From Nordella sp. HKS 07 (GTDB lineage: Bacteria > Pseudomonadota > Alphaproteobacteria > Rhizobiales > Aestuariivirgaceae), in the NCBI RefSeq assembly GCF_011046735.1, contig NZ_CP049258.1:3552001-3616000 (forward strand): 64,000 nt of DNA, written 5' to 3'. The translations under genes were made by a program, and so were the position numbers. Below, one piece after another: positions 10,689-41,355 of this stretch. The notes beneath the pieces are model-generated. The model was not told the origin of the DNA, did no database searches, and saw nothing but the letters and a program-made list of their open reading frames with translations. How positions within the stretch are numbered: the stretch's first letter is position 1; each line of letters opens with the position of its first letter.

Positions 10689-10713
10689 GGAACTTCTCAC
10701 GGGTTAAGAAGTT
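10689..10713 (+). promoter_or_regulatory. EcfG-like promoter inside an inverted repeat
   Basis: GGAAC (10689-10693), 16 bases, AGTT (10710-10713). This fits the alphaproteobacterial general-stress sigma pattern GGAAC-N16/17-CGTT at all but one position. The same bases form a 9-bp inverted repeat (GGAACTTCT / AGAAGTTCC), so an operator is the alternative reading. Confidence 0.45.
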
Positions 10714-10738
10714 CCTCTGCCGGGAAGAAAAACCTCTC

Positions 10739-10861: not shown

Positions 10862-10929
10862 TTGCCGGCAGACTTTAGCTATCCCGAGCGCCAGAACCGG
10901 CTCACAACCTGCCAGCGGTTCGTCCCTGA

Positions 10930-10954
10930 GGAACTTTAGAAACGTCCGTGGGTT
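10930..10954 (+). promoter_or_regulatory. EcfG-like promoter
   Basis: GGAAC (10930-10934), 16 bases, GGTT (10951-10954). It is placed 28 bases before the start of the small gene at 10983. Confidence 0.5.
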
Positions 10955-10982
10955 TGCGGTGTGGACACCATGGAGGTTTCAG

Positions 10983-11132
10983 ATGTCGAAAACACCGCTC
11001 AGGCCCGCCACTCCGATTGACGCGGAGATTGCCGAACCCACGCCTGATGAGGACACGGAAATCGGGAAGGCGCATAAGATGGGAGAAAAATACAGGAAAC
11101 CGCCCCGATCTGACGACAAAAATGAGTCCTAG
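10983..11132 (+). CDS. Small acidic/polar hypothetical protein
   Basis: 49 residues, starting MSKTPLRPATPIDAEIAEPT and ending RSDDKNES. It is hydrophilic and probably disordered, with no Cys and no membrane segment. A good ribosome site (GGAGG, six bases before ATG) and an EcfG-like promoter just upstream support expression. Function unknown; the context suggests a small general-stress protein. Confidence 0.5.
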   Translation: MSKTPLRPATPIDAEIAEPTPDEDTEIGKAHKMGEKYRKPPRSDDKNES

Positions 11133-11444
11133 GACAAGATAGTCTCTGAGGTTGTTGCGGATGTGTTCAGCCTCGCCCTCCAAGTCTCCACCAAAGGACT
11201 CTCGTCTAATCATGTCGCCAGACCTCAACCGCCGACGAGAGCAGGATTGCTCCATCGGCCACGGGCGGAAGTCCTGAACGGGAAATGGAAAATCCCCGAG
11301 CCTCAGCCCGTGAATGGATGGGCAAATTATCTTGTCGACCGTTCAGGGAACTGCCAGCAGCCAAGCTCAGCAGTGGCGAGCGCCGACACATGAGGATCTG
11401 GAAATCGGGATTATGATGCAGCCACAATCATCGGTTCTGAGGAA
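11133..11444. other. Intergenic stretch, no gene seen
   Basis: Short frames here show no family pattern on either strand. A GAGGA site near 11439 serves the next gene. Confidence 0.4.
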
Positions 11445-12377
11445 TTGACGTTGGAAGCTCCGCCACTGGAACGTAAGCTCACCGCGATTTTGTCGGCGGA
11501 CGTCGAAAGCTATAGCCGACTGATGCATCAGGATGAAGAGGAGACCCTTGCTACTCTGTCTTCGCATCGAGCCATCATGGATGATCTCATCGGGAAGTAT
11601 CGGGGCCGTATTGCGGGAACGGCCGGCGACAGTGTCCTGGCAGAGTTTGCCAGCGTCACCGATGCCTTTGCGTGTGCCATCGCCATACAGCAGGAGCTGC
11701 ATAGGGCAAATATGGCCCTGGCCGAAGACCGAAAAATGCAGTTTCGCATAGGTATCAATGTTGGCGACGTCATGCTCAAGGGCGGCGACCTCTTCGGGGA
11801 TGGCGTGAACGTCGCCGCGCGTGTTCAAGCGACAGCCGGCCCAGGAGAAATTTGTGTGACGCGCGGGGTTCGCGACCATTTGCGTGACCGAGTGGACTCC
11901 GAGTTTCAGGATCTGGGCGAACATGCCGTAAAGAACATCCCTCGGCCTGTGCGGATATTCAAGGTCGTGTTCGATCGAACAGGCTCCCCCGACCCTCCGC
12001 GAGGGATTGCCAATGAGGGGGCAGTAGAACCGATAGTGTCCCATCCCCCAGGATCGAAGGCCGAGCCAGGCCCCGGGGAGATTGCATTCTGGACAGCGGT
12101 CGAAAGCAGCAATTCGGACACTGAGTACCGCGCGTATTTGGAACAATATCCGAGCGGCGCCTTTGCCTCTCTTGCTCAGAGTCGGTTAGAGATGCGGTCC
12201 GGCGATGAGATCGCAAATCCAGAAGACAAGCTTGAGATCGAACTCACCTTCTGGAATTCGATCAAGGACAGTGACAACTCGGAAATGTTCAGCGCTTATC
12301 TCGAAAAGTTCCCGGATGGGCAGTTCAGGAGCGTCGCCGAGATACGCTTAGGCGAGCTGAAAAATCAAAACACCTGA
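11445..12377 (+). CDS. Class III cyclase homology domain protein with two C-terminal FW..S repeats
   Basis: 310 residues. The N-terminal cyclase domain (about 10-175) has D19 and D62 for metals, D115 and the N122/R126 pair. The purine-recognition Lys position is Gly (GRIAGTAGDS), so base specificity or activity may be altered. The C-terminal part has two copies of a ~45-residue unit (AFWTAVESSNSDTEYRAYLE ... TFWNSIKDSDNSEMFSAYLE), each ending FP/YP-G-x-F and an RLE/RLG helix. These units occur in other rhizobial cyclase and caspase-like proteins. The start is TTG; the second TTG, at 11451, is better spaced from GAGGA. No ATG is in frame. Confidence 0.8.
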   Translation: MTLEAPPLERKLTAILSADVESYSRLMHQDEEETLATLSSHRAIMDDLIGKYRGRIAGTAGDSVLAEFASVTDAFACAIAIQQELHRANMALAEDRKMQFRIGINVGDVMLKGGDLFGDGVNVAARVQATAGPGEICVTRGVRDHLRDRVDSEFQDLGEHAVKNIPRPVRIFKVVFDRTGSPDPPRGIANEGAVEPIVSHPPGSKAEPGPGEIAFWTAVESSNSDTEYRAYLEQYPSGAFASLAQSRLEMRSGDEIANPEDKLEIELTFWNSIKDSDNSEMFSAYLEKFPDGQFRSVAEIRLGELKNQNT

Positions 12378-12626
12378 CTCCTTCACGGCGCGGGGTAGAG
12401 AGAGACCTTCACGGGCAAATCGATTTGCGCCCACGCTCTTGGACGGCGGGCTGGCAGGCTCAGCGCCCGTGTCAGCTCGAAGAGCGTATCTACCATGCGC
12501 CGTGGTCGAGAAGTTATGCCAAGAAGCGGATAGACACATCGAAGGGCGAAAGGTGATTTTGCTCCGAAGCGGAAGCGCCGGCCGCCGGCTGGCGAGCCCC
12601 TAATCGGTAAGCGGGCACTATTCAGT

Positions 12627-12669
12627 GGCCCGCCAGGGTGGGCATAGCGAGGTGGTCACCTGGCGGGCC
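12627..12669. repeat. 11-bp inverted repeat
   Basis: GGCCCGCCAGG (12627-12637) pairs with CCTGGCGGGCC (12659-12669) across 21 bases. No T-run follows. It lies between the plus-strand cyclase and the convergent small frame at 12656-12940. Confidence 0.5.
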
Positions 12670-12940
12670 TTGGGGCTACCTGCCGTAGCGCAGGTAACAG
12701 GCAACGAAACGCTAAGTTAAATTGTTCCGTCCGCTGGATATCGGTCTTACTCGCTCGTCCCGCCACGATCATTGACCATGTCGGCCCCGGCCAGATTGCT
12801 TCGCGGATCTGCTCGATTGCCTCAACGAGCCGCCTCTTTTCTACCTGCTGGAGCTCTTTGACGTGGTTCACGGCCCATCCCAGTTTTTCCGGCGTATCCT
12901 GGCCTCTGTGCTTAGGGGCGCAATAAGCCTGTTGGAGCAC
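12656..12940 (-). CDS. Hypothetical helical protein, start uncertain
   Basis: A frame of 94 codons from a GTG at 12940 is open further upstream to a stop near 13010. The extended reading is KECPRHFEPAAIKALAEVLQ, then QAYCAPKHRGQDTPEKLGWA, then helical VNHVKELQQVEKRRLVEAIE. Codon use and the periodic hydrophobics look protein-like, but I know no family. The extension has no ATG, so the gene may be truncated. The stretch 12378-13230 otherwise holds only an inverted repeat and a short tandem duplication. Confidence 0.35.
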   Translation of the reverse strand: MLQQAYCAPKHRGQDTPEKLGWAVNHVKELQQVEKRRLVEAIEQIREAIWPGPTWSMIVAGRASKTDIQRTEQFNLAFRCLLPALRQVAPRPAR

Positions 12941-13036
12941 TTCAGCCAGCGCTTTGATAGCTGCCGGCTCGAAATGCCTTGGGCATTCCTTTCCGGCCGA
13001 ACGAGAGCGCTATGGTGTAAAAATCACGGCCCGCCA

Positions 13037-13073
13037 AGCCTTGGAGAAGAGAAGAAGCCTTGGAGAAGAGAAG
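13037..13073. repeat. Tandem duplication of a 19-base unit
   Basis: AGCCTTGGAGAAGAGAAG occurs at 13037-13054 and again at 13056-13073. It lies in a non-coding stretch. Confidence 0.7.
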
Positions 13074-13230
13074 GACACAAGAGGCGAGAAGCCTAGCGGG
13101 CACGCCTCCTGCGATGGGCAGGTAAGGATCAACTTCGTGCAGCCAAGAATGTTCCGGGGCTCACCGCCGATCTCATTGCAGGAAAAAACCGGAAATGTCC
13201 CTCGAATGGAAGCCTCGTCGCGTAATCACG

Positions 13231-13255
13231 GGAACACATTCTCGCCTTATACGTT
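13231..13255 (+). promoter_or_regulatory. EcfG-type promoter with full consensus
   Basis: GGAAC (13231-13235), exactly 16 bases, CGTT (13252-13255). This is the full general-stress consensus. It lies 42 bases before the start codon of the RlpA-like gene at 13297. Confidence 0.75.
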
Positions 13256-13296
13256 TCCCTGGAGAAATAGGCACTCCAAACATATTGAGGATATAC

Positions 13297-13653
13297 ATGA
13301 AGCGAATCCTCGCTGCTCTCCTGATTTGTGCCTTTGCAACGCCAATCTCCATTCTACCGACGAATGCCATTGAAGCCCAAACCGGCATTGCCTCCTATTA
13401 CAAGTCCGGCAAGCGGACCGCCAATGGCGAAACATTCGATCCCGACGGGTATACAGCGGCGCATCGCTCGCTGAAATTCGGCACTCGAGTGCGCGTCACC
13501 AATCTGCGCAATGGCCGCTCAGTGATCGTACGTATAAATGACCGCGGTCCGGTTGTTCGCGGCCGTATCATCGATCTGGCTTATGCTGCGGCGAAGGCCG
13601 TGGACCTCTATGATTCAGGCGTCACCAAGGTAGAGGTCGCTGTACTCCACTAA
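13297..13653 (+). CDS. RlpA-like double-psi beta-barrel exported protein
   Basis: 118 residues: a signal peptide (MKRILAALLICAFATPISIL, cleavage near NAIEA), then a compact RlpA-type double-psi beta barrel. The family marks are GIASYY, the GKRTANGETFDPDGYTAAHR block, LKFGTRVRVTNL, IVRINDRGP and IIDLAYAAAKAVDL. There is no SPOR domain, so it is the short form. RlpA proteins are septal or cell-wall lytic transglycosylases or glycan-binding factors; activity of this one is not shown by sequence. The start has GAGGA seven bases upstream. The full EcfG promoter upstream predicts stress induction. Confidence 0.85.
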   Translation: MKRILAALLICAFATPISILPTNAIEAQTGIASYYKSGKRTANGETFDPDGYTAAHRSLKFGTRVRVTNLRNGRSVIVRINDRGPVVRGRIIDLAYAAAKAVDLYDSGVTKVEVAVLH

Positions 13654-13694
13654 CCGAGGGCGGAAGTACCGGTCGCGCGGTGGCGATGAAATCC

Positions 13695-14087
13695 CTATTG
13701 CGACTGCCGGCGTCGACCCACCTTGTGCCGAAGTGCGTCGCGGTTTCCCTCGCAAATGGCTGCATGGAGAAGATACAAATCCGCGACAGCGCCAATATCG
13801 TGTTGCGCGAATTTCTTCGCGCGGCGGATCTGCTTTTCGAGCCGCTCAATTTTCGGATTATTTTTCGCACTTTCACCCCTCCGACATTCAGGTATCCCAG
13901 ATCGAGCAATATCCAGCGCGCGTGCGAACAGCTTTTCGAAGTCACGCTCACCCGGGGCGGCGTAAGCCACTATACGTGAGGCAATAGTTGCCCTGGTCAC
14001 TTCATCACAGCCGCCACGCTCCGCACACGCCCGATTGACAATCTGTGCAAGCATTGCAACTTCCCGGGGCTTGAAAGCGTAATTCAT
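13695..14087 (-). CDS. Hypothetical cytoplasmic protein
   Basis: 130 residues from the ATG at 14087, which has GAGG seven bases upstream; an ATG ten codons earlier lacks a ribosome site. It starts MNYAFKPREVAMLAQIVNRA, then CAERGGCDEVTRATIASRIV, which looks like a small all-helical domain of the kind found in uncharacterised rhizobial proteins. The C-terminal region is basic and coiled-coil-like (ERLEKQIRRAKKFAQHDIGA). No function can be assigned. It converges with the RlpA-like gene and follows the Crp/Fnr gene on the same strand, 93 bases apart. Confidence 0.55.
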   Translation of the reverse strand: MNYAFKPREVAMLAQIVNRACAERGGCDEVTRATIASRIVAYAAPGERDFEKLFARALDIARSGIPECRRGESAKNNPKIERLEKQIRRAKKFAQHDIGAVADLYLLHAAICEGNRDALRHKVGRRRQSQ

Positions 14088-14180
14088 CGCCGTTTCCTCG
14101 ATGACGGATCCTGCCATACAGGCTTAGCTCATGCCTGTTCAATATTGATCATTCAGTGGAGAAAAGTGGCGCGCTGCGGG

Positions 14181-14864
14181 TTAATTTTGCTCGCTGTCTT
14201 CCGGGCGAGTTTCTATTGCCCGCCTCTCGTTCAGGACCACATGCAATAATGCGCTATTTACGTGGAGCTTGCCGTTGTAGTGGATCAACCCGAGTTTGCG
14301 GAACTTGTTCATGAAAAAGCTTACCCGCGAACGGGTGGTGCCGATCATCTCGGCAAGCATTTCCTGACTGATGTTGCCCAGAACCGGTTCGGATTTTCCC
14401 TCTTTGCCGAAGTTTGCGAGCAAAAGCAGCAGTCGCGCCAAGCGCTTTTCGCTGGAGTTAAATAGCTGATCAATCAGGTCTTCTTCGTATCTCGCGGTTC
14501 GCGTCAGAAGGTGCGAGAGAAAAAAGTCGGAAAACTCGTGCTCTTTCGAAAGCACTCTCAGCATGTGAGCTTTTTCGATGCGGATAAGCGAGGTGTCGGT
14601 CAGCGCGGTCGCCGTCGCAATTCGCAAGGGGTGGCCGGCCAAGCACTTTTCCCCAAAAAAGGAACCTGCCTCCAGAAGGGCTATCACCGCCTCTTTGCCC
14701 TGCTCTGAAGTCACGGACAATTTAACTTGACCTCTCAAGACATAGAAAATCGCGTCACAAGGCCCACCCTGCGAAAACACCTCATCGTTCTTCTCATAGT
14801 CGATGACCGCGCGCTCCAAGGCAACGCGATCAAACATGGCTTCCGGAGAGCCTACCTGCGCCAT
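14181..14864 (-). CDS. Crp/Fnr-family transcriptional regulator
   Basis: 227 residues. Residues ~10-130 form a cyclic-nucleotide-binding beta barrel (YEKNDEVFSQGGPCDAIFYV, then SFFGEKCLAG, then RIATATALTD). A dimerisation helix follows, then a winged helix (ISQEMLAEMIGTTRSRVSFF as the recognition region). There are no N-terminal Fnr cysteines, so it is not an oxygen sensor of that type. The nearby cyclases suggest a cNMP ligand, but the phosphate-binding Arg-Ser pair of CRP is not evident. Targets unknown. Confidence 0.88.
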   Translation of the reverse strand: MAQVGSPEAMFDRVALERAVIDYEKNDEVFSQGGPCDAIFYVLRGQVKLSVTSEQGKEAVIALLEAGSFFGEKCLAGHPLRIATATALTDTSLIRIEKAHMLRVLSKEHEFSDFFLSHLLTRTARYEEDLIDQLFNSSEKRLARLLLLLANFGKEGKSEPVLGNISQEMLAEMIGTTRSRVSFFMNKFRKLGLIHYNGKLHVNSALLHVVLNERRAIETRPEDSEQN

Positions 14865-14977
14865 AGGACGTTTTTTGCCTGTCCCTGAGACTGCCTGGAG
14901 CGGCGAGGATAGGGAATTTTGAGAAAGTGTTCAATGCCGTTCACCGAAATGGCTGCGTAGTGAATACTGGAGGCTCA

Positions 14978-30179: not shown

Positions 30180-30358
30180 GGTTGTCCCCCTCGCCCCGCG
30201 GGAGCGGGGAGAGGGGGGCCCATTGCGAAGCAATGGGAAGGTGAGGGGCACCCGGTCTTTTAGCGCAATGATTGGCAGATCTATCGCGATTGCTGCGTAG
30301 AAGGGTAACAAGGATGCCCCTCACCCTCCCTCTCCCCTCTTTGAGGGGCGAGGGGTGA
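30180..30358. repeat. CCCCTC-type low-complexity inverted blocks
   Basis: Runs of 'cccctcgcccc', 'gcggggagagggg', then 'gcccctcaccctccctctcc' and 'gaggggcgaggggtg' occur in inverted arrangement. These are widespread intergenic GC-rich blocks in alphaproteobacteria. No gene is seen in 30151-30391. Confidence 0.55.
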
Positions 30359-30391
30359 CCTGCATCGCCTCGCGAGACACCCGCTCTGAGC

Positions 30392-31082
30392 TCAGTCGCT
30401 CCCCACCAGGCCGCGCAGTTTCTGCAGGTCTGGCACTTTCAGGGCACGGCCTTCCTTCACGATGAAGCCCTGCGCTTCGAGCCAGGCGAATTCGCGCGTC
30501 ACCGCTTCGCGATGCGTGCTGATGCGGCTGGCGATCTCCGCATGGGTGGGAGGCGGCGAGAGGAGCGCTTGACCTTCGCCCTTGGCGGCGGCCTCCGCCA
30601 GCCGGAGCAACTCGGCCCAAAGCCGTTGCCGCACCGCCATGGTGCTGAATTCGAACACCCGCCTGGTGAGGACGCGCACCTGCTGGGTCAGATGCGTCGC
30701 CACCGCCCTGGTGAATTCCGGGTGATTGGCCATCGCGGCGAGGGAATTGCGGTCGCCGCATCACAGCGGCGACACAGGGCTCGACGGCTTCGACGCTGGC
30801 CGAGCGCGGGTGACCATCGATCGCCGAGAGCTCGCCGAAGATCGTGCCGGCAGCGACGTCCCGGAAGGCCACCCGTTGCCCGTCCGCCGAGTAGATGCTG
30901 ACCCGCGCCAGACCTTCCAGCAGGAAGAGGACGTCGAAGGTTTCGTCATTGTGGCCGATGATCAGCTCCAGCGCGCCATATTCGCGGATGGCGCATTGCT
31001 GCGCCAGCTCGGCGAAAGCAGCCTCGTCGAGAGACTTGAAATAAGCGATCGCTCGCAATGCATCTTTTGAGTGTTTGGCCAT
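30392..31082 (-). pseudogene. Crp/Fnr-family regulator with a frameshift
   Basis: The N-terminal part (from 31082) is a cNMP-type beta barrel: ALELIIGHNDETFDVLFLLE, then GTIFGELSAIDGHPRSASVE. The second half, in another frame, reads MANHPEFTRAVATHLTQQVR, then a winged helix THAEIASRISTHREAVTREF. Removing one C near 30755 joins them as AAVMRDRNSLAAMANHPEF, a normal Crp/Fnr sequence. So it is either a real loss-of-function or a sequence error. It is divergent from the quinoprotein operon (161 bases apart) and is the obvious candidate regulator for it. Confidence 0.8.
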
Positions 31083-31243: not shown

Positions 31244-32683
31244 ATGGCCCACGACTGGCGGCAGTTTCTCGTCCTGGATGCGATTTCGGCCACCAAACAC
31301 GGGCTGACGTCGCGGGCCGCCAAACATCCGGGCCTGACCTGGCACGATCATCTGGTCATGTTGCTCCATGTGGCGGCCGAGATCGAGCATGGGCTCATGG
31401 TTCAATATCTCTATGCCGCCTATTCGCTGGGCGGCCCCGATGCCGCGACGCCGAAGCGCCAGGCTCTCATCAAGCGCTGGCAGACGAGCCTGCTCAAAGT
31501 GGCGAAGGAGGAGATGGGCCATCTCCTCACCGTACAGAATATCCTGCGCCTCGTCGGCGCCCCGGTGCATTTCGGGCGCGAGGATTATCCCTGGACGGTG
31601 CCTTATTATCCCTATCCCTTCCGGCTCGAGAGGCTCACCCGCTCGTCGCTCGCCTGTTATGTGCATGCCGAGATGCCGCCGCATATCGCCAAGACGCTGA
31701 AGGAACCTCCGGAACTCTCCAAACGCTTCGAGGATTTCCTCGAGACGGACAAGGCCGAGATCGCCAGGCTGATCAAGGAACGGGCGGAAGGCCCGGTCCA
31801 TACCGTTGCCGCCATCTATGACGACATCATCGATATCATCGGCAACGAGCATCTGATTCCCGATTCCGCTTTCGACGACGAGACCTATGCTACCCAGGCC
31901 TCCTGGGACGACTGGGGGCGCTCCTACGGGCCCGAGCCGCGCGCACTCGATCCAAGCGGCTCGACGGTGGGTGACCCGCTCCGTCAGCGCGAGGCGAACG
32001 TCATCATCATGCGCGCCGCGACGCGCACCGAGGCGCTGGCGGCGCTCAAGGCGATCGGCAGCCAGGGCGAGGCAGTGCACCTCGAGACCAAGCGCACCGA
32101 CGAGCTCTCGCATTTCGAGCGCTTCCTGAAGATCTTCCAGGAGTTTCCCGACGACTGGGTGCCGGCGCGCAATATTCCGGACAATCCGACGACCCGGAAA
32201 TTCGAACGCAAGGGTGCGAACTATATCGACAACGACTATGCGCGCCATTGGGCGACGCTGTTCAACTATCGCTACCGTCTGCTCCTGACCTGCCTCACCC
32301 ATTCCTTCCGCCTGGCGCGCTTGTCGAAAGCGGGCGAGCCCAATCTGCGCGGCATGGTCATGCACCGGATCTTCGGCGAGATGTACAATATCAAGACGAT
32401 CTCAGGGGTTCTCGTCGGGCTCGATCTGCACAAGGACGGAACGGCGGGTTATGCCGCTCCACCCTTCGAGATGCCTTATTCGCTGACGCTGCCCGATGGC
32501 GAAGCCGATGCCTGGCGGCTGCATCAAGAACTTCTCCAGGGGGCGCTCGACGTGACGAAGCTGCTGCTGGAGAAGGCGACCGGGACGGGGCGCGATTATC
32601 TCATCGCCTTGAGCGATCTCGATCGCAGGGCCATCGCCACCATCGACGCATTGCTCGAAGGCCAAGGGAGTAAGCGCAAGTGA
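31244..32683 (+). CDS. Ferritin-like protein, VioB/RebD-type domain
   Basis: 479 residues. Three ExxH motifs are visible: EIEH (E46-H49), EEMGH (E90-H93) and DELSH (about E287-H290). With YLYAAYSLGG they match the ferritin-like domain shared with VioB/RebD (iminophenylpyruvate dimer synthases) and related proteins. The domain usually binds a di-metal or haem-linked site. No signal peptide. It is first in a coupled operon; its stop overlaps the next start (GTGA). In violacein and rebeccamycin pathways the VioB/RebD partner is an amino-acid oxidase that feeds it an imine, and an oxidase of the LodA family follows here. A similar pairing is an inference. Confidence 0.8.
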   Translation: MAHDWRQFLVLDAISATKHGLTSRAAKHPGLTWHDHLVMLLHVAAEIEHGLMVQYLYAAYSLGGPDAATPKRQALIKRWQTSLLKVAKEEMGHLLTVQNILRLVGAPVHFGREDYPWTVPYYPYPFRLERLTRSSLACYVHAEMPPHIAKTLKEPPELSKRFEDFLETDKAEIARLIKERAEGPVHTVAAIYDDIIDIIGNEHLIPDSAFDDETYATQASWDDWGRSYGPEPRALDPSGSTVGDPLRQREANVIIMRAATRTEALAALKAIGSQGEAVHLETKRTDELSHFERFLKIFQEFPDDWVPARNIPDNPTTRKFERKGANYIDNDYARHWATLFNYRYRLLLTCLTHSFRLARLSKAGEPNLRGMVMHRIFGEMYNIKTISGVLVGLDLHKDGTAGYAAPPFEMPYSLTLPDGEADAWRLHQELLQGALDVTKLLLEKATGTGRDYLIALSDLDRRAIATIDALLEGQGSKRK

Positions 32684-34911
32684 GTCCGGACATGGGAAAG
32701 ATCAAGGAACTTCGTATCCTGCCGCCTTTCGCCATCGGCAGGCTGGGCTCCGCGGAAGACCCCCTCGACAACTATACGATCGCGACCGATGCGGAAGGAC
32801 CGCTAGGTTACCGCACTATCGTGCCCGCCGAGACACTGATCGTCGATGAAGCGTCGGGCGAGATCAGCGGCACTCATGTTCCCGCGCGGATGCAGTTCAA
32901 GCGGGACAAGAAAATCCGCCCGGTAGCGCCGTTCCTCGAGCTCTTCGCGGTGAACGCGAAGAACGAGCTGGTGCCGGTGACCGAGGATTTGCTGGCGGGG
33001 GCCAAACTCTCCTGGCGGGTCGCGGTGGCCAACCGCAAGGTCGTCCGGCGTACCCGCGATAAGGCGGACCTCGTCTCGGCCCATACCGGCTGGTTCAGCG
33101 ATCACGCGCCGCAGAGGCTCAAAGGGTATTGCACGAACTTCATTTCGAAGGACGCCTTCGTCGATTTCGGCAGCGTGCGCTTCATCAAACCCAACGAGAA
33201 GTATCCGCAGATCAGGCTGCGCTTCACACCGGCGAAGGGACTCATCTACGGACCGCATGCGCCCGACGCCCCCGATCCGATCATCCCGGCCGAGCGCGCC
33301 ATCTACGACCACGGCAAGGATCGCGGCACGTGGTACAAGTTCGAAGCGGATGGCAAGGATGAAACCGTTCCGCCCTCGCTCTTCGCCATCGAGCCGCCGG
33401 CGCCGTCATGGCTCAACGACAATATCGCCATCAGCCGCGGCTATTTCGACGATGCCTGCGACGGCTTCGTCGAGGCGAAGCTTAACCTTTCCGATGGCCA
33501 CGTCCTCACCGCCTCGGCGCGCATCTGCGCCTCGCCGCCCGCGGTCGTGCCGGATTCGCTTTTCGTGCGCAGCCTTGCCGATGATCTGGAACAAGTCATC
33601 CATGGACCGGCAGTCGCCGATGACGAGGCGCCGGAAATCACGCAGGCGCGCGCCGAGGATATTGTCCGCCGCGCCTTCGAGACGGTACGCTTCCTCAATG
33701 TCGCGGTCCTGAACGGCAACGACTACAAGGGCCGGTCGGCGCTGTCGCTCGATTCCATGCCCGAGGAAGAGGCCGCCGACACCGAGCGCGCCATCCGCCC
33801 GGTGATCACGCCGGAAGGCGCCGACACGCTGGCCATACTCACCTTGCATCAGCAGGTCTACGCCGCCTTGCGTGGTGGTGCCGCTCCCTGGTTCCTGCGC
33901 CTGCTGCGCAATCCTGACGAGGTCTCCGACTTCACCGATCGCGGACGGCGCAAGATGCCGGCCTTGATGTGCGGCGCCGACAACAGCTATCTCGCCCTCA
34001 CGCACCGCCAGATCGATACCATCCGCAAAGTGGCCGAGGGCACGCTCGGTACCGTCGCGGCGGCGCCCAAGGTATTGGCGCTCACGCCACGCAATCTCAC
34101 CGCCCAGATCCATTATGAAGCGGCGGGCAATCCGGTGAGCTCACGGCCGGTGACGTCGGTCGCCAATTGCTGCCCCGGGCTCGAAGTGGATTTCCGCGCC
34201 ATATGGCGACGCATGCTCGAGGGCCTGGAACTGCGCGAATATGACAATCTGATCGTCAATGCCGATCCTGAATTCGCCGAGTTGAAGGGCCATCGCCTGC
34301 TGCGCATCACCTTGCCGGACGGCCAGAAGCCAATCGAGCCGATGAACTACATCAGGGGGCCGGCGACCTCGGATCCCGACGGCTACATCATCCTCACCAC
34401 AGCTGAGAATCCTTATGGCCTCGCCCCGCTCGAATGGTCGAATGCGCTGGCGCGGCTGTTGAATGGCTTCCAGGGCGAGACGGTCGACTGCGATATCTCC
34501 CTCAACGCGGAGGAGGCGCAGGTCCCGCGGCAGGAGGATCCGCCGAACTTCAAGACCTACCGCTTCAAGGTCCGGTATTTCTTCGATCCCGGCACCGCGG
34601 TCATATCGGAGGCCCTGGCCGAGGCGGGCGAACTCACGCAAGGCCTGTGCTCGCCCTGGCAGAACGACTACCGCGAATGCTCCTGCTACTATTGGGCCTC
34701 GGCGCGGCCCGATTTTGTGAATGTCGAGCCCGGCCCCAAGGGCTTGAGCCACGGCGACAACTGGCTGCAGAAAAAGCGCACCGGACAATATGTGGCCGAT
34801 GATTATGTCGATTCCCGCCTCGTCTTCTATGACGAGCTGTTCACCGACTGGGAGAAATGGCTGCGCTTCCAGGTGAAAGGCCGCGATGCGCCGGGCGAGG
34901 AGCGGTCGTGA
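32680..34911 (+). CDS. LodA-family quinoprotein oxidase (CTQ type, candidate)
   Basis: 743 residues. N-terminal blocks match LodA: ILPPFAIGRLGSA and, ~70 residues on, WRVAVANRKV. The C-terminal block CSPWQNDYRECSCYYWASAR corresponds to the LodA region that carries the quinone Trp (PWQ, W660 here) followed by (F/Y)W-x-x-RP. The middle block ANCCPGLEVDF (C497, C498) corresponds to the LodA block with the cross-linked Cys, though here Leu occupies the exact LodA Cys place, so C497 or C498 is the likely partner. LodA/GoxA proteins oxidise amino acids to H2O2, ammonia and an aldehyde or keto acid with a cysteine-tryptophylquinone. Substrate unknown. No signal peptide. Start GTG overlaps the upstream stop; ATG at 32692 is the alternative. 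Confidence 0.78.
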   Translation: MSPDMGKIKELRILPPFAIGRLGSAEDPLDNYTIATDAEGPLGYRTIVPAETLIVDEASGEISGTHVPARMQFKRDKKIRPVAPFLELFAVNAKNELVPVTEDLLAGAKLSWRVAVANRKVVRRTRDKADLVSAHTGWFSDHAPQRLKGYCTNFISKDAFVDFGSVRFIKPNEKYPQIRLRFTPAKGLIYGPHAPDAPDPIIPAERAIYDHGKDRGTWYKFEADGKDETVPPSLFAIEPPAPSWLNDNIAISRGYFDDACDGFVEAKLNLSDGHVLTASARICASPPAVVPDSLFVRSLADDLEQVIHGPAVADDEAPEITQARAEDIVRRAFETVRFLNVAVLNGNDYKGRSALSLDSMPEEEAADTERAIRPVITPEGADTLAILTLHQQVYAALRGGAAPWFLRLLRNPDEVSDFTDRGRRKMPALMCGADNSYLALTHRQIDTIRKVAEGTLGTVAAAPKVLALTPRNLTAQIHYEAAGNPVSSRPVTSVANCCPGLEVDFRAIWRRMLEGLELREYDNLIVNADPEFAELKGHRLLRITLPDGQKPIEPMNYIRGPATSDPDGYIILTTAENPYGLAPLEWSNALARLLNGFQGETVDCDISLNAEEAQVPRQEDPPNFKTYRFKVRYFFDPGTAVISEALAEAGELTQGLCSPWQNDYRECSCYYWASARPDFVNVEPGPKGLSHGDNWLQKKRTGQYVADDYVDSRLVFYDELFTDWEKWLRFQVKGRDAPGEERS

Positions 34912-36245
34912 GCGGGGCCGCTCGGTTTTACATGCAGGCCTCACGCCCGCGACTGCCCGCGGCGCATCTTCTGGCCACCGATGCCGGCCGGCATCTCTTC
35001 GTCGCCGATGGCAGCCGGCTGTTCGATATCGAGGCGGATCTCTTCGCCGAATTCGAGACGGCGCTGACGGGGCTGGATTCCGGCAAGGTCGCCCGCCTGC
35101 TGGCGCAGGCCGGGCTCGATAGCGCGCCCCTGATCGATGATGTGCCCTTGCCGCCTCCGCCAATTCACGCATTATCCCTGGCGGTGGCGCAGAAATGCAA
35201 TCTCGGCTGCACCTATTGTTATGCCGAGCAGGGCGGCTTCGGCGGGGCGCCGAAGAACATGCCGCTCACCACCGCGCTGCAATCGGTCGATCAATTGATC
35301 GGGAATGCGGCGCCGGGAGCCAAGCTCAATCTGTCCTTTCTGGGCGGCGAGCCTCTGGTCAACCGGCCGGTGCTTCAGGCGGCGACGCTGCACGCCGCCG
35401 ATCGCGCGCGCCGGAAGGATGTGCCGATCACCTTTTCGATCACCACCAATGGCACGCTCGTCACCGAAGCTGATGCGGACTTCTTCGAGGAGCACGGCTT
35501 CGCGGTGACGATCAGCCTCGACGGCATCGGGGCCGCGCATGACGCCCAGCGGCCCTTCCGCAATGGCCAGGGCAGTTTCGACCGCATCATGGCGCGGATC
35601 GCACCGCTTCTCGCACGTCAGCGCCGCATGCAGGTATCGGCGCGGGTGACCGTCACGTCGCGCAATCTCGATCTGCGCACGACGCTCGACGGCTTCATCG
35701 CCCATGGCTTTCACAGCGTCGGCTTCTCGCCGATGCTCGCCTCGCCGTCGGGCCAAGGCGAGATGCAGGCCGGCGATCTTGAATTGATGCTCGCCCAGAT
35801 GATCGAGTGCGGGCGTGAATTCGAGCGCCGCACGCTGGCTGGCCAGCGTTATCCCTTCGCCAATATGCTGAATGCCATGCGCGAGATCGGGCGCGGCACG
35901 CACCGGCCTTACCCTTGTGGCGCCGGCGCCGGCTATCTCGGCGTTTCCGCTTCGGGTAATTTCGCCGCCTGTCACCGTTTCGTCGATGACGAGGAGGGCG
36001 CCATGGGCTCGCTCACCCACGGGATCGACACCGCCCGGCAAGCGGCGTGGCTGGCCGAGCGGCATGTCCATCGCCAGGAGCCGTGCAAGGGCTGCTGGGC
36101 GCGCTATCTCTGCGGCGGCGGCTGCCATCACGAAGTGACGAAGCGCGGCCGTCCGGCCTGCGACTACATCAGAGGCTGGCTGCATTATTGCCTCGAGGCC
36201 TATTTGCGTCTGGGCCAGGCCGCGCAACAGCCGATGGCGGGGTGA
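34908..36245 (+). CDS. Radical-SAM/SPASM maturase
   Basis: 445 residues. The radical-SAM cluster motif CNLGCTYC is at C97-C101-C104, then LGGEPLVN, then ITTNGTLV and ISLDGIG. The SPASM region has the Cys set CGAGAGYLG, AACHRF, EPCKGCWARYLCGGGCHHE and a late HYC, enough for two auxiliary Fe-S clusters. The overall pattern resembles QhpD, which installs Cys-to-carboxylate thioether links in the QHNDH quinoprotein. GTG 34908 overlaps the LodA-like stop (GTGA) and has GAGGAG upstream. Given its place between the LodA-like and flavoprotein genes, I infer that it modifies the LodA-like protein. Confidence 0.88.
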   Translation: MSGAARFYMQASRPRLPAAHLLATDAGRHLFVADGSRLFDIEADLFAEFETALTGLDSGKVARLLAQAGLDSAPLIDDVPLPPPPIHALSLAVAQKCNLGCTYCYAEQGGFGGAPKNMPLTTALQSVDQLIGNAAPGAKLNLSFLGGEPLVNRPVLQAATLHAADRARRKDVPITFSITTNGTLVTEADADFFEEHGFAVTISLDGIGAAHDAQRPFRNGQGSFDRIMARIAPLLARQRRMQVSARVTVTSRNLDLRTTLDGFIAHGFHSVGFSPMLASPSGQGEMQAGDLELMLAQMIECGREFERRTLAGQRYPFANMLNAMREIGRGTHRPYPCGAGAGYLGVSASGNFAACHRFVDDEEGAMGSLTHGIDTARQAAWLAERHVHRQEPCKGCWARYLCGGGCHHEVTKRGRPACDYIRGWLHYCLEAYLRLGQAAQQPMAG

Positions 36246-36249
36246 GCCT

Positions 36250-37638
36250 ATGGCGAGAGTGTGCGTCATCGGCGGCGGTCCGGCGGGCAGCGTCTTCGCC
36301 ATCCGCATGGCGCAACTCGGCCACCAGGTGGAGCTTATCGAGCCTGTCGCCTTTCCGCGCCCGCATCTAGGCGAGTCCTTGAGCCCTGGCGTCCCGGCAC
36401 TCCTCCAGAGCCTGGGCGCAGAAGACGCTCTGGCGGGCTCCCGCCCGGTGCGCCAGGTCGAGGTTGCCTGGGAGGGAGCACCGCAGATCCGCCTCGACGA
36501 GCGCCAGGAAGGACGTCTGGTCGATCGTGGCTATTTCGATTCTCTGCTGCTCGATCATGCGCGAAGCTTAGGCGTCGGCATCCGCCAGCCGGCCCGGATC
36601 GTCGACCGCCGGCACGATGCGGAAGGCTGGCGTCTCGTCATCGAAACCGAAACGGGGAGCCAGAGCATCGCGGCCGATTTCCTGGCGGATGCGCGCGGCC
36701 GCAATGGCGCTCCATCCTGGCGCAGGCAGCCGGCCGGGCCCGCGACGCTCGCCCTTCATGCTTACTGGAAAGGGCCGGGTCTTCCCGACCATCCGGTGAT
36801 CCGGGCCGGCGACGACGCCTGGTACTGGTCGGTGCCGCTTCCCGATGGCTCCTGCAACATCCAGGTCTTCGTCGATGCGCACGCCTTCGGCGCGGCGCGC
36901 AAGGACACACTCGATTCACGCTATCTGGATCTGCTCGACCGTTCCGGCTTCAGGCCCGGCGCGCCTGCCGGCCGGGTTCAGGCGACGAACGCCTCGGCCT
37001 ATGTGGCGCTCGCCGCCACGACGGCGGCAAGCATCGCGCTGGGCGAAACCGCTCTGGCGCTGGATCCTCTGTCATCGAGCGGCGTGCAGAAGGCGATCCA
37101 GACGGCGCTCGCCGGCGCCATCGTCGCCAATACGCTCATAGGGCGGCCGGCCTCCGCCAGCGCCGCCATGGCCTTCTATCAGGGAAGCCTGGAGGAAGCG
37201 TCGACGCGCCATCGATCCTGGGCCGCGGGCTACTATGCGGAAGCGGCGCGCGCGCGGCCGGCGGCCTTCTGGCGCGACCGCGCGGCCGCCATGCCCGGGA
37301 ACGCCCGCCGCCGCGCCGCGGTTTCCGCCGATATGGCCAGTGTCGCTTCCCAGCCGGTCGAACTGTCGCGCGATCTCGTCATTGCAGATCTGCCCTGCAT
37401 CGAGGGCGATTTCGTCACGCTGCGCAAGACGCTGCGCCATCCGGATCTTGCCGGCCCTGTCGCCTATCTCGGCGATCAGCCGCTGGCGCCCCTGCTGGGC
37501 GACTTTTTGCCGGGCGCGACGCTGGTCGAAATCGCGCAAGGCTGGTCACGCCGCATGCCGTTCAAATCCGCTTTGTCGATCGCCATCTGGCTGCGCAATA
37601 ATGGCGTCCTTGTCGCGCGCAGCGAGGCCCGGCGATGA
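36250..37638 (+). CDS. FAD-dependent monooxygenase, LodB/QhpG type
   Basis: 462 residues. The dinucleotide motif is VIGGGPAGSVFA (8-14), then the halogenase/hydroxylase-like HLGESLSPG, then ADFLADARGRNG, and the FAD-binding ALDPLSSSGVQKA. LodB and QhpG are flavoproteins of this family that hydroxylate the precursor Trp during CTQ formation. It follows the radical-SAM gene by four bases and overlaps the next gene by four (ATGA). It is probably the CTQ-forming hydroxylase for the LodA-like product; a halogenase is less likely because the K-motif Lys of tryptophan halogenases is not seen. Confidence 0.8.
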   Translation: MARVCVIGGGPAGSVFAIRMAQLGHQVELIEPVAFPRPHLGESLSPGVPALLQSLGAEDALAGSRPVRQVEVAWEGAPQIRLDERQEGRLVDRGYFDSLLLDHARSLGVGIRQPARIVDRRHDAEGWRLVIETETGSQSIAADFLADARGRNGAPSWRRQPAGPATLALHAYWKGPGLPDHPVIRAGDDAWYWSVPLPDGSCNIQVFVDAHAFGAARKDTLDSRYLDLLDRSGFRPGAPAGRVQATNASAYVALAATTAASIALGETALALDPLSSSGVQKAIQTALAGAIVANTLIGRPASASAAMAFYQGSLEEASTRHRSWAAGYYAEAARARPAAFWRDRAAAMPGNARRRAAVSADMASVASQPVELSRDLVIADLPCIEGDFVTLRKTLRHPDLAGPVAYLGDQPLAPLLGDFLPGATLVEIAQGWSRRMPFKSALSIAIWLRNNGVLVARSEARR

Positions 37639-40600
37639 CATCGCTCACCGAATGGCTCAACGAACGTGGCTTTGCCGAGCATGCGCAGCTTTTTGCCGAC
37701 AACGACGTCGATCTGGCCACCTTGCTCCTTCTCACCGACGGCAACCTCAAGGAGCTCGGTCTTTCCTTCGGGGCGCGCAAGCGCCTGCTCAATGCGCTGG
37801 CCGAGTACAAGGCGGCGAGACCCGAGCCCATGGCCCGCGCCGAGGAGCGCCGCCAGCTCACCGTGATGTTCTGCGACATGGTCGGCTTCACGGCACTTGC
37901 GCAGCGCATCGACCCGGAAGTGCTCAAGGATGTCGTGCGCGGCTATGAGGATGCCTGCGCCGCCTGCATCGCCCGTTACGAGGGGTATCTGTTCCAGCGT
38001 CTGGGCGACGGCATCGTCGCCTTCTTCGGCTTTCCGCTCGCGCATGAGCGCGAGGCCGAGCGCGCCATCCGCGCCGGGCTCGACATCATTGACGCCATGA
38101 CGCGTTTCAAATCTCCCGATGGCAGCAGGCTCGAGGTCCGCATCGGCATCGCCACCGGCATCGTCGTCGTTTCCGCCGATGGACGCACCGCCGTCAGCGA
38201 GACCATGAATCTGGCGGCCCGCCTGCAGAGCGTGGCGCAGAAGGGCACGCTTGCGGTGAGCTCCAAGGTGCGCAAGCTCGCCGGCGATGCCTTCGACTAT
38301 GAGGATTTGGGCGCGCATAGCCTCAAGGGCATCACGCTTCCCGTCCATATCTACCGTGCGCTGGGGCTTGCCAGCGCCGAAAGCCGACAGGCCAAGGACA
38401 AGCCGCTCATCGGGCGCGGCGCCGAGATGGAGACGCTGCTCGACAAATGGCGCAGCGTCCAGGACGGGGGCAAGGGTTTTACCGTCAATGTCTGCGGCGA
38501 GCCGGGTATCGGCAAGAGCCGCATCGCCGATGCGTTGTGCGCCTGTCTCGAACATGAGAATGCACAGATTTGGCGATTCCAGTGTTCTCCCTTCCATCTC
38601 AACAGCGCCTTCTATCCGATCAGGACGCATCTCGACGAGGTGCTGCAGATCAGTGGTGACAGTCCTGTTGATGTCAGGCTCGACAAGCTGGAGGCGCTGA
38701 TCGTCGGGCGCTATGGCTTGCCGCTCTCCGATGTGCGCTTCATCGCCGGCATGATGTCCATCCCGTGTGACGCCCGTTATGGCGCGCTCGACATATCGCC
38801 ACGGCTCGCCAAGGAGGAGACGGTCCGCGTGATGGAGGACATGGTGGCCGCCGCCGCCCGCTTGCGCCACACGCTGTTGCTGTTCGAGGACATGCACTGG
38901 GCCGATCCGACGACGCTCGAGACTTTGGAAAGGCTGATCGGCAAGCTCGCCGGCATACCCTTGTTGATCGTCGCCACCTATCGGCCGGAGTTCGAGCCGC
39001 ACTGGTCGCGTCATGTCGATGTCGCGGTCCTCAATCTTGCCAAGCTCACTGCTCAGCAAAGCAAGGAAATGATCGGGCGGCTGGCCGAGGGCAAGTCGCT
39101 GCCGGCCGAGATCGTCGAGCGCATCATCGCCAAGACCGATGGCGTGCCGCTCTTCGTCGAGGAGCTGACGCGCAACATCCTGGAATCGGGCGGACTGGTC
39201 GAGGCGGGCGGGCGCTATGTCTATGCCGGCGACGCTTTGGGCTTCGCCATCCCGGAAACCCTTCGCGACTCGCTTGCCGCGCGTCTCGACCGATTGGCCA
39301 AGGCGAGGCCGGTCGCCCAGATCGGCTCGGTGGCCGGGCGCACCTTCAGTTTTGAGCTTTTGGCGGCGCTCAATCAGATGGACGATGCGTCTCTGGCTGA
39401 GGGCCTGGCGGAATTGACCGCTTCGGGTCTTGCGGTGAGTACAGGCACCGCACCCGGACCGGTGTCGTATACATTCAAGCATGCGCTGGTCCAGGACGTG
39501 GCTTATGACTCCCTTTTGCGCAGCCAGCGCAAACCGCTGCATGCGCGGATCGCCCAGGTGCTGGAGGAACGCCATCCCGAGACGCGCGATCGCGAGCCCG
39601 AGCTGCTCGCGCATCATTATACGGCGGCGGATGATCCGGCCGCCGCAGCACCGCTCTGGCTCAAGGCGGGCGAGGTGGCCATGCAGCGCTTCGCCGTGCC
39701 GGAGGCCGTCAGCCATTTGCACAAGGGCATCAATCTGCTCGAGACCGCGTCGCCGGGTCCTGAACGCGACCTGCTGGAGTTGCGGTTTCGCGCCTCTCTG
39801 GGTCCGGCGCTGGTCGCCGGGCGCGGCTGGGGGCATCCGGAACTGAGCGCGGTGCTGGAGCCCGCCTGGGCGCTCGCCCACCGGCATCGGCATCGCCAGG
39901 CCTATCTGCCGATCCTGAATGCGCTTTGGGTGCATACAATGTGCGTCGACCGTCTCGACGTGTCATTGCGCTGGGCCGAGAAGCTGCTCGAAGTCGGCGT
40001 CGAGACGGGCGACGAAAACCTGGTCGTCGTCGGTCATCGCGCGATTTCGGGGTCGGCTTTCTGGCAGGGCCGGTTCGATCTGGCCAAGGCGCATGGCGAC
40101 AAGCTTCTGGCGATGTATGATGCTGAAAGGCACCGGCACATCGCACAGCTCACCAATACCGATCCCTTGACCGGCGAAGGCATCTACCGGGCGCAATATC
40201 TCTGGATCATCGGCTATCCGGACCAGGCGGTGGCGGCGAGCAACGAAAGAGACGATCATGCCCGCCGCCGCAATCATCCCTTCGACCTCGCCTTCTCGCT
40301 GACGCTCGGTGCGCAGGTTTTCGATTTCCTGTGCGAGCCAGATGAGTTGCTGGCGCGCGCCGAAGAGGCCGACAGTGTCGGCCGCCGCTTCGGCGTCTCG
40401 CTCTTCTTCGAGGTCATGGCGGAGATCAGCCGCGGCATCGCATGGCTCAGGGCTGGACGCCATAGCGACAGCGCCATGCGCATCGACCGGGCCATCACGC
40501 GTCTTGCCGCGACCGGCCACCGCATCTGGATTGCCTATTTGCGGGCGCTCCAGGCTGAGGCGCTGGCACTTGGCGGCGACCTCGATACCGCCGATCGGCT

Positions 40601-40964
40601 TGTCGATGAAAGCATCGCCAGGATCAGGGCGGGCGAGGAACGTTGCCACCTAGCCGAGGTGCTGCGCCTCAAGGGCTGGCTGCTGGCGCAACGGGGCAGG
40701 CTGGATGAGGCGGAGGGGCGGCTTTACGAGGCGATTGCCTTGGCGCGCGCGCAAGGGGCGAAATCCTGGGAGCTGCGCGCCACGACGACTTTCGCGCGGC
40801 TTCTCGCCGATCGCGGCGAGCATGAGCGGGCCTTCGACATACTGGCGGCCATCCACGGCTGGTTCAGCGAAGGATTCGCCAGCCGGGATTTGAAGGCGGC
40901 CGCGACTTTGCTCGACGAGCTTCGGCTGCATATCAGCAAGGGAGGAATGAGGAATGCCGGGTGA
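37635..40964 (+). CDS. SAM-domain, class III cyclase, STAND-type ATPase and TPR protein
   Basis: 1109 residues. Residues 1-57 are a sterile-alpha-motif domain (SLTEWLNERGFAEHAQLFAD). Residues ~70-245 are a class III cyclase domain with VMFCDMVGFTA and LGDGIVAFFGFP, and Asn/Arg in ETMNLAARLQ; the purine Lys position is Gln. A P-loop ATPase follows from ~255 (Walker A GEPGIGKSR, Walker B LLLFEDMHWADP), and a long TPR region fills the C-terminal half. This architecture is common in rhizobia but is rarely seen coupled to an enzyme operon. It overlaps the flavoprotein gene (ATGA) and the next gene by 11 bases, so it is made with the quinoprotein set. Confidence 0.9.
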   Translation: MTSLTEWLNERGFAEHAQLFADNDVDLATLLLLTDGNLKELGLSFGARKRLLNALAEYKAARPEPMARAEERRQLTVMFCDMVGFTALAQRIDPEVLKDVVRGYEDACAACIARYEGYLFQRLGDGIVAFFGFPLAHEREAERAIRAGLDIIDAMTRFKSPDGSRLEVRIGIATGIVVVSADGRTAVSETMNLAARLQSVAQKGTLAVSSKVRKLAGDAFDYEDLGAHSLKGITLPVHIYRALGLASAESRQAKDKPLIGRGAEMETLLDKWRSVQDGGKGFTVNVCGEPGIGKSRIADALCACLEHENAQIWRFQCSPFHLNSAFYPIRTHLDEVLQISGDSPVDVRLDKLEALIVGRYGLPLSDVRFIAGMMSIPCDARYGALDISPRLAKEETVRVMEDMVAAAARLRHTLLLFEDMHWADPTTLETLERLIGKLAGIPLLIVATYRPEFEPHWSRHVDVAVLNLAKLTAQQSKEMIGRLAEGKSLPAEIVERIIAKTDGVPLFVEELTRNILESGGLVEAGGRYVYAGDALGFAIPETLRDSLAARLDRLAKARPVAQIGSVAGRTFSFELLAALNQMDDASLAEGLAELTASGLAVSTGTAPGPVSYTFKHALVQDVAYDSLLRSQRKPLHARIAQVLEERHPETRDREPELLAHHYTAADDPAAAAPLWLKAGEVAMQRFAVPEAVSHLHKGINLLETASPGPERDLLELRFRASLGPALVAGRGWGHPELSAVLEPAWALAHRHRHRQAYLPILNALWVHTMCVDRLDVSLRWAEKLLEVGVETGDENLVVVGHRAISGSAFWQGRFDLAKAHGDKLLAMYDAERHRHIAQLTNTDPLTGEGIYRAQYLWIIGYPDQAVAASNERDDHARRRNHPFDLAFSLTLGAQVFDFLCEPDELLARAEEADSVGRRFGVSLFFEVMAEISRGIAWLRAGRHSDSAMRIDRAITRLAATGHRIWIAYLRALQAEALALGGDLDTADRLVDESIARIRAGEERCHLAEVLRLKGWLLAQRGRLDEAEGRLYEAIALARAQGAKSWELRATTTFARLLADRGEHERAFDILAAIHGWFSEGFASRDLKAAATLLDELRLHISKGGMRNAG

Positions 40965-41355
40965 CAAGCACAAGACCGACGAGATGGCCATCCGCCGCCT
41001 GGATGAGGAGTGGGGCAAGGCCGCGACGGCCAAGGATCTCGAAGCCGTGGTGAGTTTCTACGCGCCTGACGGTTCGCTGGTCTGGCCGGGGGCGCCCGCT
41101 TCGCATGGCACCCAGCACATCCGCGCCAGCTGGAAGGAAATGATGGACACGACGCCCGGGCTCAATCTGCGTTTCACGCCCGAACGCATTGTGATCTCGG
41201 ATGACGCGTCGCTGGCCTCGGATTTCGGCAAGGTCGAGTTCGGCCATGAGGTCAAGGGCAAGCCGGTCATGGATATCGCCAAATATGTCGTGGTCTGGCG
41301 CAAGGAGAAGGGGAGCTGGAAGGTTCTCTATGACAGTTACAACGTGAACTCTTGA
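40954..41355 (+). CDS. SnoaL-like/DUF4440 (NTF2-fold) protein
   Basis: 133 residues. The cystatin/NTF2-like fold of SnoaL/DUF4440 proteins is seen in RLDEEWGKAATAKDLEAVVS, then FYAPDGSLVWPG, then GKPVMDIAKYVVVWRKEKGS, then WKVLYDSYN. These act as small-ligand binding or isomerase-type domains, with no conserved chemistry. It is the last gene of the six-gene quinoprotein operon, followed by a strong hairpin. Confidence 0.85.
   Translation: MPGDKHKTDEMAIRRLDEEWGKAATAKDLEAVVSFYAPDGSLVWPGAPASHGTQHIRASWKEMMDTTPGLNLRFTPERIVISDDASLASDFGKVEFGHEVKGKPVMDIAKYVVVWRKEKGSWKVLYDSYNVNS

Follow-up and report, generated by a model that had tools for sequence, protein, structure and literature searches.

The quinone cofactor cysteine tryptophylquinone (CTQ) is known from two kinds of enzymes: quinohemoprotein amine dehydrogenase (QHNDH), which carries it in a tiny thioether-caged subunit, and the oxidases LodA and GoxA, for which the passages available to us mention no cage. 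(Here and below, the cited papers are represented by abstracts and excerpts.) In LodA, the CTQ pair is C516 and W581 (PMC4417212). In QhpC, the gamma subunit of QHNDH, thioether bonds link C7-E16, C27-D33, and C41-D49, and CTQ is formed from C37 and W43 (PMC8172795; the crosslinks also appear in PMC7876137). The radical S-adenosylmethionine (SAM) enzyme QhpD forms Cys-Asp/Glu thioethers (PMC8172795), and the flavoprotein QhpG, in complex with QhpD, dihydroxylates the CTQ tryptophan of crosslinked QhpC (PMC7876137). Here we describe a gene cassette in a 64,000-nt stretch (the window) of the genome of Nordella sp. HKS 07, which is a single contig of 7.18 Mb. In the cassette's family, the LodA fold is found together with the maturation pair and the cage residues of QHNDH. 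We think it likely that genes 1-4 of this cassette encode a new class of CTQ enzyme together with its maturation: a LodA-type enzyme with CTQ at C667-W672, in which gene 3 would form the thioethers C657-D663 and C669-D678 and gene 4 would hydroxylate W672. In the open-access literature (most subscription papers and preprints lie outside it), we found by title, abstract, or passage no description of a LodA-like protein with a radical-SAM maturase, and none of homology between QhpC and LodA.

All six plus-strand open reading frames (ORFs) that a first-pass annotation of this DNA had described are present at the locus, and they overlap or abut as it claimed: in order, the junctions are a 4-bp overlap, a 4-bp overlap, a 4-bp gap, a 4-bp overlap, and an 11-bp overlap. 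We number the genes 1 to 6 in their 5' to 3' order. For gene 3, we used the GTG start at 34908 from the first-pass annotation in our alignment; the ORF list begins this gene at ATG 34857. The features are:

31244..32683, + strand: gene 1, ferritin-like protein (PF12902, 96.2 bits), proposed partner subunit of the quinoprotein
32680..34911, + strand: gene 2, LodA/GoxA-fold quinoprotein of 743 amino acids (LodA_N, hhalign, AlphaFold2 model with Foldseek)
34168..34185, + strand: block C497...E502 of gene 2 (NC-x-PGLE), tentative third thioether pair (from conservation)
34648..34713, + strand: cofactor segment C657-D678 of gene 2 (from motif conservation and the mapping of LodA D512/C516/W581)
34908..36245, + strand: gene 3, QhpD-like radical-SAM/SPASM enzyme, predicted Cys-Asp/Glu thioether synthase (TIGR03906)
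36250..37638, + strand: gene 4, QhpG-like flavin monooxygenase, predicted W672 hydroxylase (NF049967)
37635..40964, + strand: gene 5, protein with SAM domain, class III nucleotidyl cyclase, AAA_16 ATPase, and TPR (Pfam)
40954..41355, + strand: gene 6, small SnoaL/DUF4440-like protein (Pfam)

Judging by sequence and by its predicted structure, gene 2 is a remote LodA/GoxA-fold protein, so its assignment to the LodA family in the first-pass annotation was sound. Its AlphaFold2 model (built from 36 sequences; mean predicted local distance difference test score (pLDDT) 79.9, predicted TM-score (pTM) 0.88) had 50 Foldseek matches at E ≤ 0.001, and all 50 were LodA or GoxA (best E = 3.1e-13). The hallmarks WRVxVANRK, DDxCDG, and PWQxD are present and align in order to LodA and GoxA, and the alignment holds around PWQ and ANRK. 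As controls, we collected ordinary LodA proteins with a PF18417 search (found in 11 of 398 genomes of the same phylum; 11 loci with flanks). In hhalign, the gene 2 family matched the 11 LodA controls at 99.2% over 407 columns, which cover the N-terminal two thirds and end before the cofactor segment; against seven of the controls, the match was 95.8%, full-length, and included the cofactor segment. Among the curated models, gene 2 passes LodA_N (27.8 bits, cut-off 26.3) and is below the cut-offs for LodA_C (16.1 bits, cut-off 25) and for NF038172/NF038173 (GoxA, 21.6 bits, cut-off 750; LodA, 12.5 bits, cut-off 600). At E ≤ 0.001, LodA_C matched 26/36 aligned members of the family and LodA_N matched 11/36.

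A scan of genome contigs with six gene 2 peptides found 131 relatives, and we kept 80 loci. Going by organism names, these span eight phyla (Pseudomonadota, Bacteroidota, Acidobacteriota, Verrucomicrobiota, Planctomycetota, Gemmatimonadota, Myxococcota, and Actinomycetota), and a Nostoc relative from a separate set of plasmids adds Cyanobacteriota. Among named organisms, an Aestuariivirga species and a Rhizobiales isolate come closest (84% identity in gene 2). We examined gene content in 67 fully flanked loci, which are not independent, as several congeners from Chitinophaga, Dyadobacter, and Flavobacterium are included. Genes 1-4 co-occur in 66 of the 67 loci, and in 63 they are contiguous on one strand in the order 1-2-3-4. 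The exceptions to this order are a locus with gene 4 upstream (L009), one with a wider gap (L067), and one with genes 3 and 4 several kb upstream (L071). In the one locus that does not have all four genes (L026), gene 1 is present, and genes for the radical-SAM enzyme and the flavoprotein are absent from the locus. The grouping of genes 1-4 is not due to chance. Gene 5 is found in just 15/67 loci and a homologue of gene 6 in 5/67 (by phmmer); a separate cluster of small ORFs occurs in 6 loci, and the one member we checked is SnoaL/DUF4440-like. The six genes that the first-pass annotation treated as a unit are thus not a conserved operon: its neighbours are conserved together in other genomes as a core of four, and genes 5 and 6 are lineage-specific add-ons. 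No further general partner genes were found in a non-redundant subset of the loci. In 15 of the 80 kept loci, gene 2 is split into two successive ORFs, with the break near residue 465, before the cofactor half; in one metagenome-assembled genome (L028), it is broken into five ORFs.

The cassette resembles the LodA/LodB and GoxA/GoxB systems in the fold of gene 2, the DDxCDG and PWQxD-x3-C hallmarks, the Asp, Cys, and Trp of the CTQ site, and an adjoining flavoprotein gene (a LodB-type gene adjoins lodA in 11/11 control loci). It differs from them in that gene 2 of the window is below the LodA_C cut-off, has C657 and C669, adjoins a QhpD-like radical-SAM gene, and is accompanied by a flavoprotein that scores as QhpG. 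A cassette-type radical-SAM gene was next to ordinary lodA in none of the 11 control loci; one control (L098) has a weak radical-SAM match (75 bits) about 3.5 kb from lodA.

The CTQ residues of gene 2 can be assigned by alignment to LodA (its residues D512, C516, and W581 were counted in alignments of chain 3weu). D512 and C516 align to gene 2 D663 and C667. By alignment and from the titles of GoxA mutant structures, the GoxA equivalent of D512 is GoxA D678, a residue that is treated in PMC7876137. W581 corresponds to W672: the profile alignment pairs TFWPARVPNQV with YYWASARPDFV, and the WWP position of W581 agrees. D663, C667, and W672 are invariant in 59/59 full-length members. The spacing of five from Cys to Trp is also found in L122, an ordinary LodA whose loop is short (PWQGDYWSCNVAWWPVQRPD). 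The first-pass annotation had placed the cofactor elsewhere, at W660 (the Trp of PWQ) with C497 or C498. PWQ is indeed invariant in the family and C497 is present in 55/59 full-length members, but the PWQ tryptophan corresponds to LodA W509, which is distinct from the quinone tryptophan, and it is C667 and W672 that match LodA C516 and W581. Also, C497 is Ala in the other 4/59 and is missing from several split members. We rejected this pairing and give it almost no credence.

The CTQ residues lie within the pattern C-x-P-W-x2-D-x3-C-x-C-x2-W-x5-D, or C.PW..D...C.C..W.....D (cofactor segment: LCSPWQNDYRECSCYYWASARPD). This pattern, with C657 and C669, is present in all 78 kept loci that reach the segment, besides the window and G008 (also L109), a divergent alphaproteobacterial genome with a split gene 2. 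Counting without a pattern-based pre-filter of the 22 split members gives 83/83: the 78 kept loci, the window itself (L001), two duplicates (L002 and L003), and L004 and L006, which both come from a single genome. The sequences of L024 and L025 break off ahead of the motif, and L005 stops short of it. Two checks are free of selection by peptides: L109, which came from a whole-genome search, and the plasmid set, which came from tblastn (11 of 20 records matching gene 2, plus the Nostoc record from a search with gene 3). Of the 12 plasmid regions that we read, the 11 with the C-terminal half of gene 2 all have the pattern; this half was not found in the stretch from an Azospirillum plasmid (L142), where a shortened radical-SAM gene is followed by an IS3 transposase gene (7491-9504). 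The full pattern is in 0/12 ordinary LodA proteins that lack an adjoining radical-SAM gene.

Part of the pattern is that of QhpC, which has C-x-P-x3-D-x3-C ... W-x5-D and the same kinds of crosslink residues. Numbered after the 28-residue leader, QhpC residues C7, E16, C27, D33, C37, C41, W43, and D49 are present in 6/6 sequences. Gene 2 C657, D663, C667, W672, and D678 are in register with C27, D33, C37, W43, and D49 of one of these (L095), and the spacings are equal: 6 for C27-D33 and C657-D663, 4 for D33-C37 and D663-C667, and 6 for W43-D49 and W672-D678. Residues for CTQ and for two predicted thioether pairs are thus conserved throughout the gene 2 family. The third pair is variable: E502 is in 59/59 full-length members and C497 is not, so a C497-E502 thioether is tentative. 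The fold, the gene set, the residue conservation, the mapping to LodA, and the correspondence with QhpC can all be read from comparisons of sequences. Unlike in QHNDH, where CTQ is in a 9-kDa gamma subunit with a 28-residue leader, the cofactor of the cassette would lie within a LodA-fold protein. The genome of Nordella sp. HKS 07 has no match to QhpC (PF08992) or to the haem-binding domain of QhpA (PF09098); QhpC itself was found in 4/299 genomes of the phylum and in 4/142 of the class.

The two putative maturases point the same way. Gene 3 is a radical-SAM/SPASM enzyme by Pfam and NCBIfam, as first annotated; its best model is QhpD (TIGR03906, 306.7 bits) and the next is PapB, and 33/33 aligned members match both. 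PapB, a ranthipeptide maturase, also joins Cys to Asp or Glu by thioethers (PMC8172795, PMC9413430), but it acts on peptides, and gene 3 is below the PapB cut-off (251.1 bits vs. 340). Gene 4 is a flavoprotein, as predicted. The first-pass annotation gave it the layout of LodB or QhpG, and of these it is nearer to QhpG (NF049967, 300.9 bits, above the cut-off of 240) than to LodB (82.7 bits, cut-off 400); GoxB is also far below its cut-off. The first-pass annotation had proposed that a LodA-like quinoprotein is served by a flavin hydroxylase as well as by a QhpD-like radical-SAM enzyme; this combination is kept across phyla in the 66 loci described above.

We infer the chemistry, the exact crosslink pairs, the kind of substrate, and the role of gene 1 from these comparisons, and we propose the following route. 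Gene 2 would fold as a LodA/GoxA-type protein, and maturation would probably take place in the cytoplasm (by eye we noticed no signal peptide in gene 2; no predictor was run). Gene 3 would link C657-D663 and C669-D678, and perhaps C497-E502, as thioethers from the Cys sulfur to the methylene of Asp or Glu. Gene 4 would hydroxylate W672, which would then bond to C667 and be oxidised to CTQ. The mature enzyme would oxidatively deaminate an amine or an amino acid. As this genome lacks the haem subunit of QHNDH, the electrons would probably pass to O2, yielding H2O2; LodA-type amino acid oxidases release H2O2 (PMC4417212). The product of gene 1 might dock beside the quinone domain and handle peroxide, a metal, or the imine product.

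We considered two other roles for the radical-SAM enzyme. It might act on the cofactor of an otherwise LodA-type enzyme (CTQ at C667-W672) by making the Cys-Trp bond or another bond, such as Cys-Tyr, with C657 and C669 serving some other purpose. SPASM radical-SAM enzymes form many types of bonds (there are models for cyclophane and thioether maturases), the sequence C-x-C-Y-Y-W puts two cysteines next to a Tyr and a Trp, and C669 is displaced from its counterpart in QhpC. On the other hand, the two best models for gene 3, QhpD and PapB, both join Cys to Asp or Glu, and, as far as PMC4417212 and PMC7876137 say, the quinone of LodA and GoxA forms with a flavoprotein partner only. Furthermore, Y670 is replaced by Gln in the divergent L109, which retains C669. 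We consider this explanation improbable. In the other role, which we find somewhat less probable still, the radical-SAM enzyme would modify an unlinked peptide, gene 2 would otherwise be an ordinary LodA matured by gene 4, and C657 and C669 would be metal ligands or form a disulfide. Invariant cysteines are compatible with metal binding, and a ferritin-like gene is present in 67/67 fully flanked loci, but genes 1-5 overlap or abut, with no space among them that could hold a precursor gene (no systematic search for small ORFs was made elsewhere). The radical-SAM gene is also in the locus in 66/67 cases, and there would be no explanation for D663 and D678, acidic partners that are spaced much as in QhpC.

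Several results weigh against our preferred reading, that a QhpD-like enzyme builds a thioether cage around CTQ in a LodA-fold protein. Regarding the fold, Foldseek TM-scores to LodA are low (0.29-0.37, with rmsd near 10 Å). The AlphaFold2 confidence is under 50 at residues 497-500 and 657-680, the segments that we propose are crosslinked; this would speak for our reading, but four other stretches are low as well, and low pLDDT may come from a shallow alignment only. Selection accounts in part for the invariance of the motif in the kept loci: 1 of the 6 search peptides (WQNDYREC) lies in it. D678 is also present in three ordinary LodA proteins (L119, L122, and the second copy in L084), so it is not specific to the cassette. 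C669 is off the column of its proposed counterpart, QhpC C41 (C-x-C-x2-W vs. C-x3-C-x-W). The block with PGxE and C497, which would be the counterpart of C7-E16, does not match QhpC significantly on its own (4/100 shuffles reach the score), and C497 is lost in several lineages. We did not identify a QhpC-type leader in gene 2. As for the maturases, gene 3 is below the TIGR03906 cut-off of 453. In a midpoint-rooted tree with weak support, the cassette flavoproteins form their own group, which is not nested within QhpG, and the flavoprotein of L109 is on the LodB/QhpG side; we have dropped the idea that they arose within QhpG. L026 retains the cofactor motif with neither maturase gene in its locus. 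Finally, direct homology between QhpC and the cassette is not significant: hhalign of QhpC with the cassette alone gave 2.9% (1/100 shuffles; the register is as expected), and with full-length cassette proteins it gave 0.5% (score 18.2 vs. a shuffle mean of 15.4).

QhpC does match LodA. With LodA alone, hhalign gave 85.7% (E = 5.5e-6, 21 columns, 0/100 column shuffles); with full-length LodA, the score was 37.7 and the maximum in 150 shuffles was 26.5; and with LodA and the cassette together, it gave 88.7% (E = 2.5e-6, 46 columns, 0/100 shuffles). The cassette belongs with LodA by its fold, and the link to QhpC runs through LodA. By this route, and over a short stretch, the data support a common ancestor of the CTQ segments. 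Since QhpC matches LodA by profile, the gene 2 family may bridge the two classes of CTQ proteins. A fuller scenario would make this family a third CTQ class, one that bridges the LodA-type oxidases and the gamma subunit of QHNDH in evolution: there would have been one ancestral CTQ segment, LodA and GoxA would have lost the thioether cage and the radical-SAM enzyme, QhpC would have been reduced to the caged segment, and the split and ferritin-fused forms would be intermediates. For us, this scenario is an even call.

The cassette is widespread in bacteria and largely unannotated. In annotated plasmid relatives, RefSeq labels gene 2 mostly as "hypothetical protein" (the fused forms described below are "ferritin-like domain-containing protein"), gene 3 as "radical SAM protein", and gene 4 as "FAD-dependent monooxygenase" or "tryptophan 7-halogenase". 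Our proposal would give a function to genes with such labels. It makes a specific chemical prediction, different from that of the first-pass annotation, and two questions would become testable: what the function of the thioether cage is, and whether a large folded protein can be crosslinked internally by enzymes of the QhpD type.

Gene 1 matches PF12902, as do 37/37 aligned members. E48, E89, E90, H93, E143, E276, and H290 are among the columns that are invariant in these 37, the window included, and E48, E90xxH93, E143, E276, and H290 are residues of the di-metal type. We counted four ExxH strings, starting at E46, E90, E276, and E287, and not the three that were first reported. Among its fold matches, the ferritin-like protein CC_0557 (3hl1, E = 3.2e-4) ranks first; the match to a manganese catalase was not significant (E = 0.059). 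The first-pass annotation described a VioB/RebD-like partner. Gene 1 and VioB do share the PF12902 ferritin-like region, but gene 1 scores 45.6 bits with the VioB model (cut-off 1250), so the likeness is one of domains. A PF12902 gene also lies directly upstream of lodA in 2/11 controls (138.7 and 136 bits), so the link to ferritin-like proteins is not confined to cassettes with a radical-SAM gene. In fungi, lodA-lodB-ferritin arrays (Campillo-Brocal 2015, PMC4417212) likewise place a ferritin-like gene with PF12902 next to a lodA-like one; the main text of that paper never uses the word "radical" and mentions no radical-SAM gene.

In three relatives, the C-terminal half of gene 2 and a ferritin-like domain form one protein: the alphaproteobacterial L109, Streptomyces sp. 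NBC_00073, and Nostoc sp. UHCC 0302. In Nostoc, the N-terminal half carries another such domain. The positions are:

L109, 9703-11544: fusion of gene 2 and ferritin-like domain
L132 (Streptomyces), 7756-9807: fusion of gene 2 and ferritin-like domain
L133 (Nostoc), 4292-5974 and 7259-9181: fusions of gene 2 and ferritin-like domain

These fusions suggest that the products of genes 1 and 2 work in contact. DyP-type peroxidase genes (a BLAST cluster) lie near 4 loci: L071 (12411-14087, - strand), L084 (16609-18000), L058, and L077, of which L071 and L084 were checked with Pfam. They would fit a role in handling peroxide. Some LodA-type proteins are fused to catalase domains.

Gene 5 probably has a signalling role. 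Directly upstream of gene 1 and divergent from it is a CRP-type regulator (30321-31082, - strand), whose cyclic-nucleotide-binding half and Crp-type helix-turn-helix half are in two different frames; in the relatives L007 and L008, a single ORF matches both halves. A cyclic-nucleotide regulator next to an operon with a class III cyclase gene hints at control of the operon by cAMP or cGMP.

The gene 2 profile matched 6 of 398 genomes of the phylum: Nordella sp. HKS 07 at full length and five others with short matches that fall on ordinary LodA genes. Five of 60 near relatives matched: two at 84% identity over the full length, the divergent split form in G008, a short and weak match in a genome of the same genus (G002), and Nordella sp. 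HKS 07 itself.

We also note some other neighbours of the cassette. In Bradyrhizobium macuxiense (L084), an ordinary LodA-type gene is a few kb from a cassette of the caged type (3288-5393; 8547-14962). In Dyadobacter diqingensis (L039, 17158-18300), a flavoprotein near the cassette groups with LodB, with weak support. Another family of neighbours recurs in 4 loci, and the 2 members that we scanned had no Pfam match. Downstream of the cassette are a tyrosinase gene on a Rhizobium plasmid (L135, 9889-10532) and a multicopper oxidase gene on a Mesorhizobium plasmid (L136, 9340-10353); both are kinds of neighbours that were reported for ordinary lodA operons of group ID (PMC4417212).

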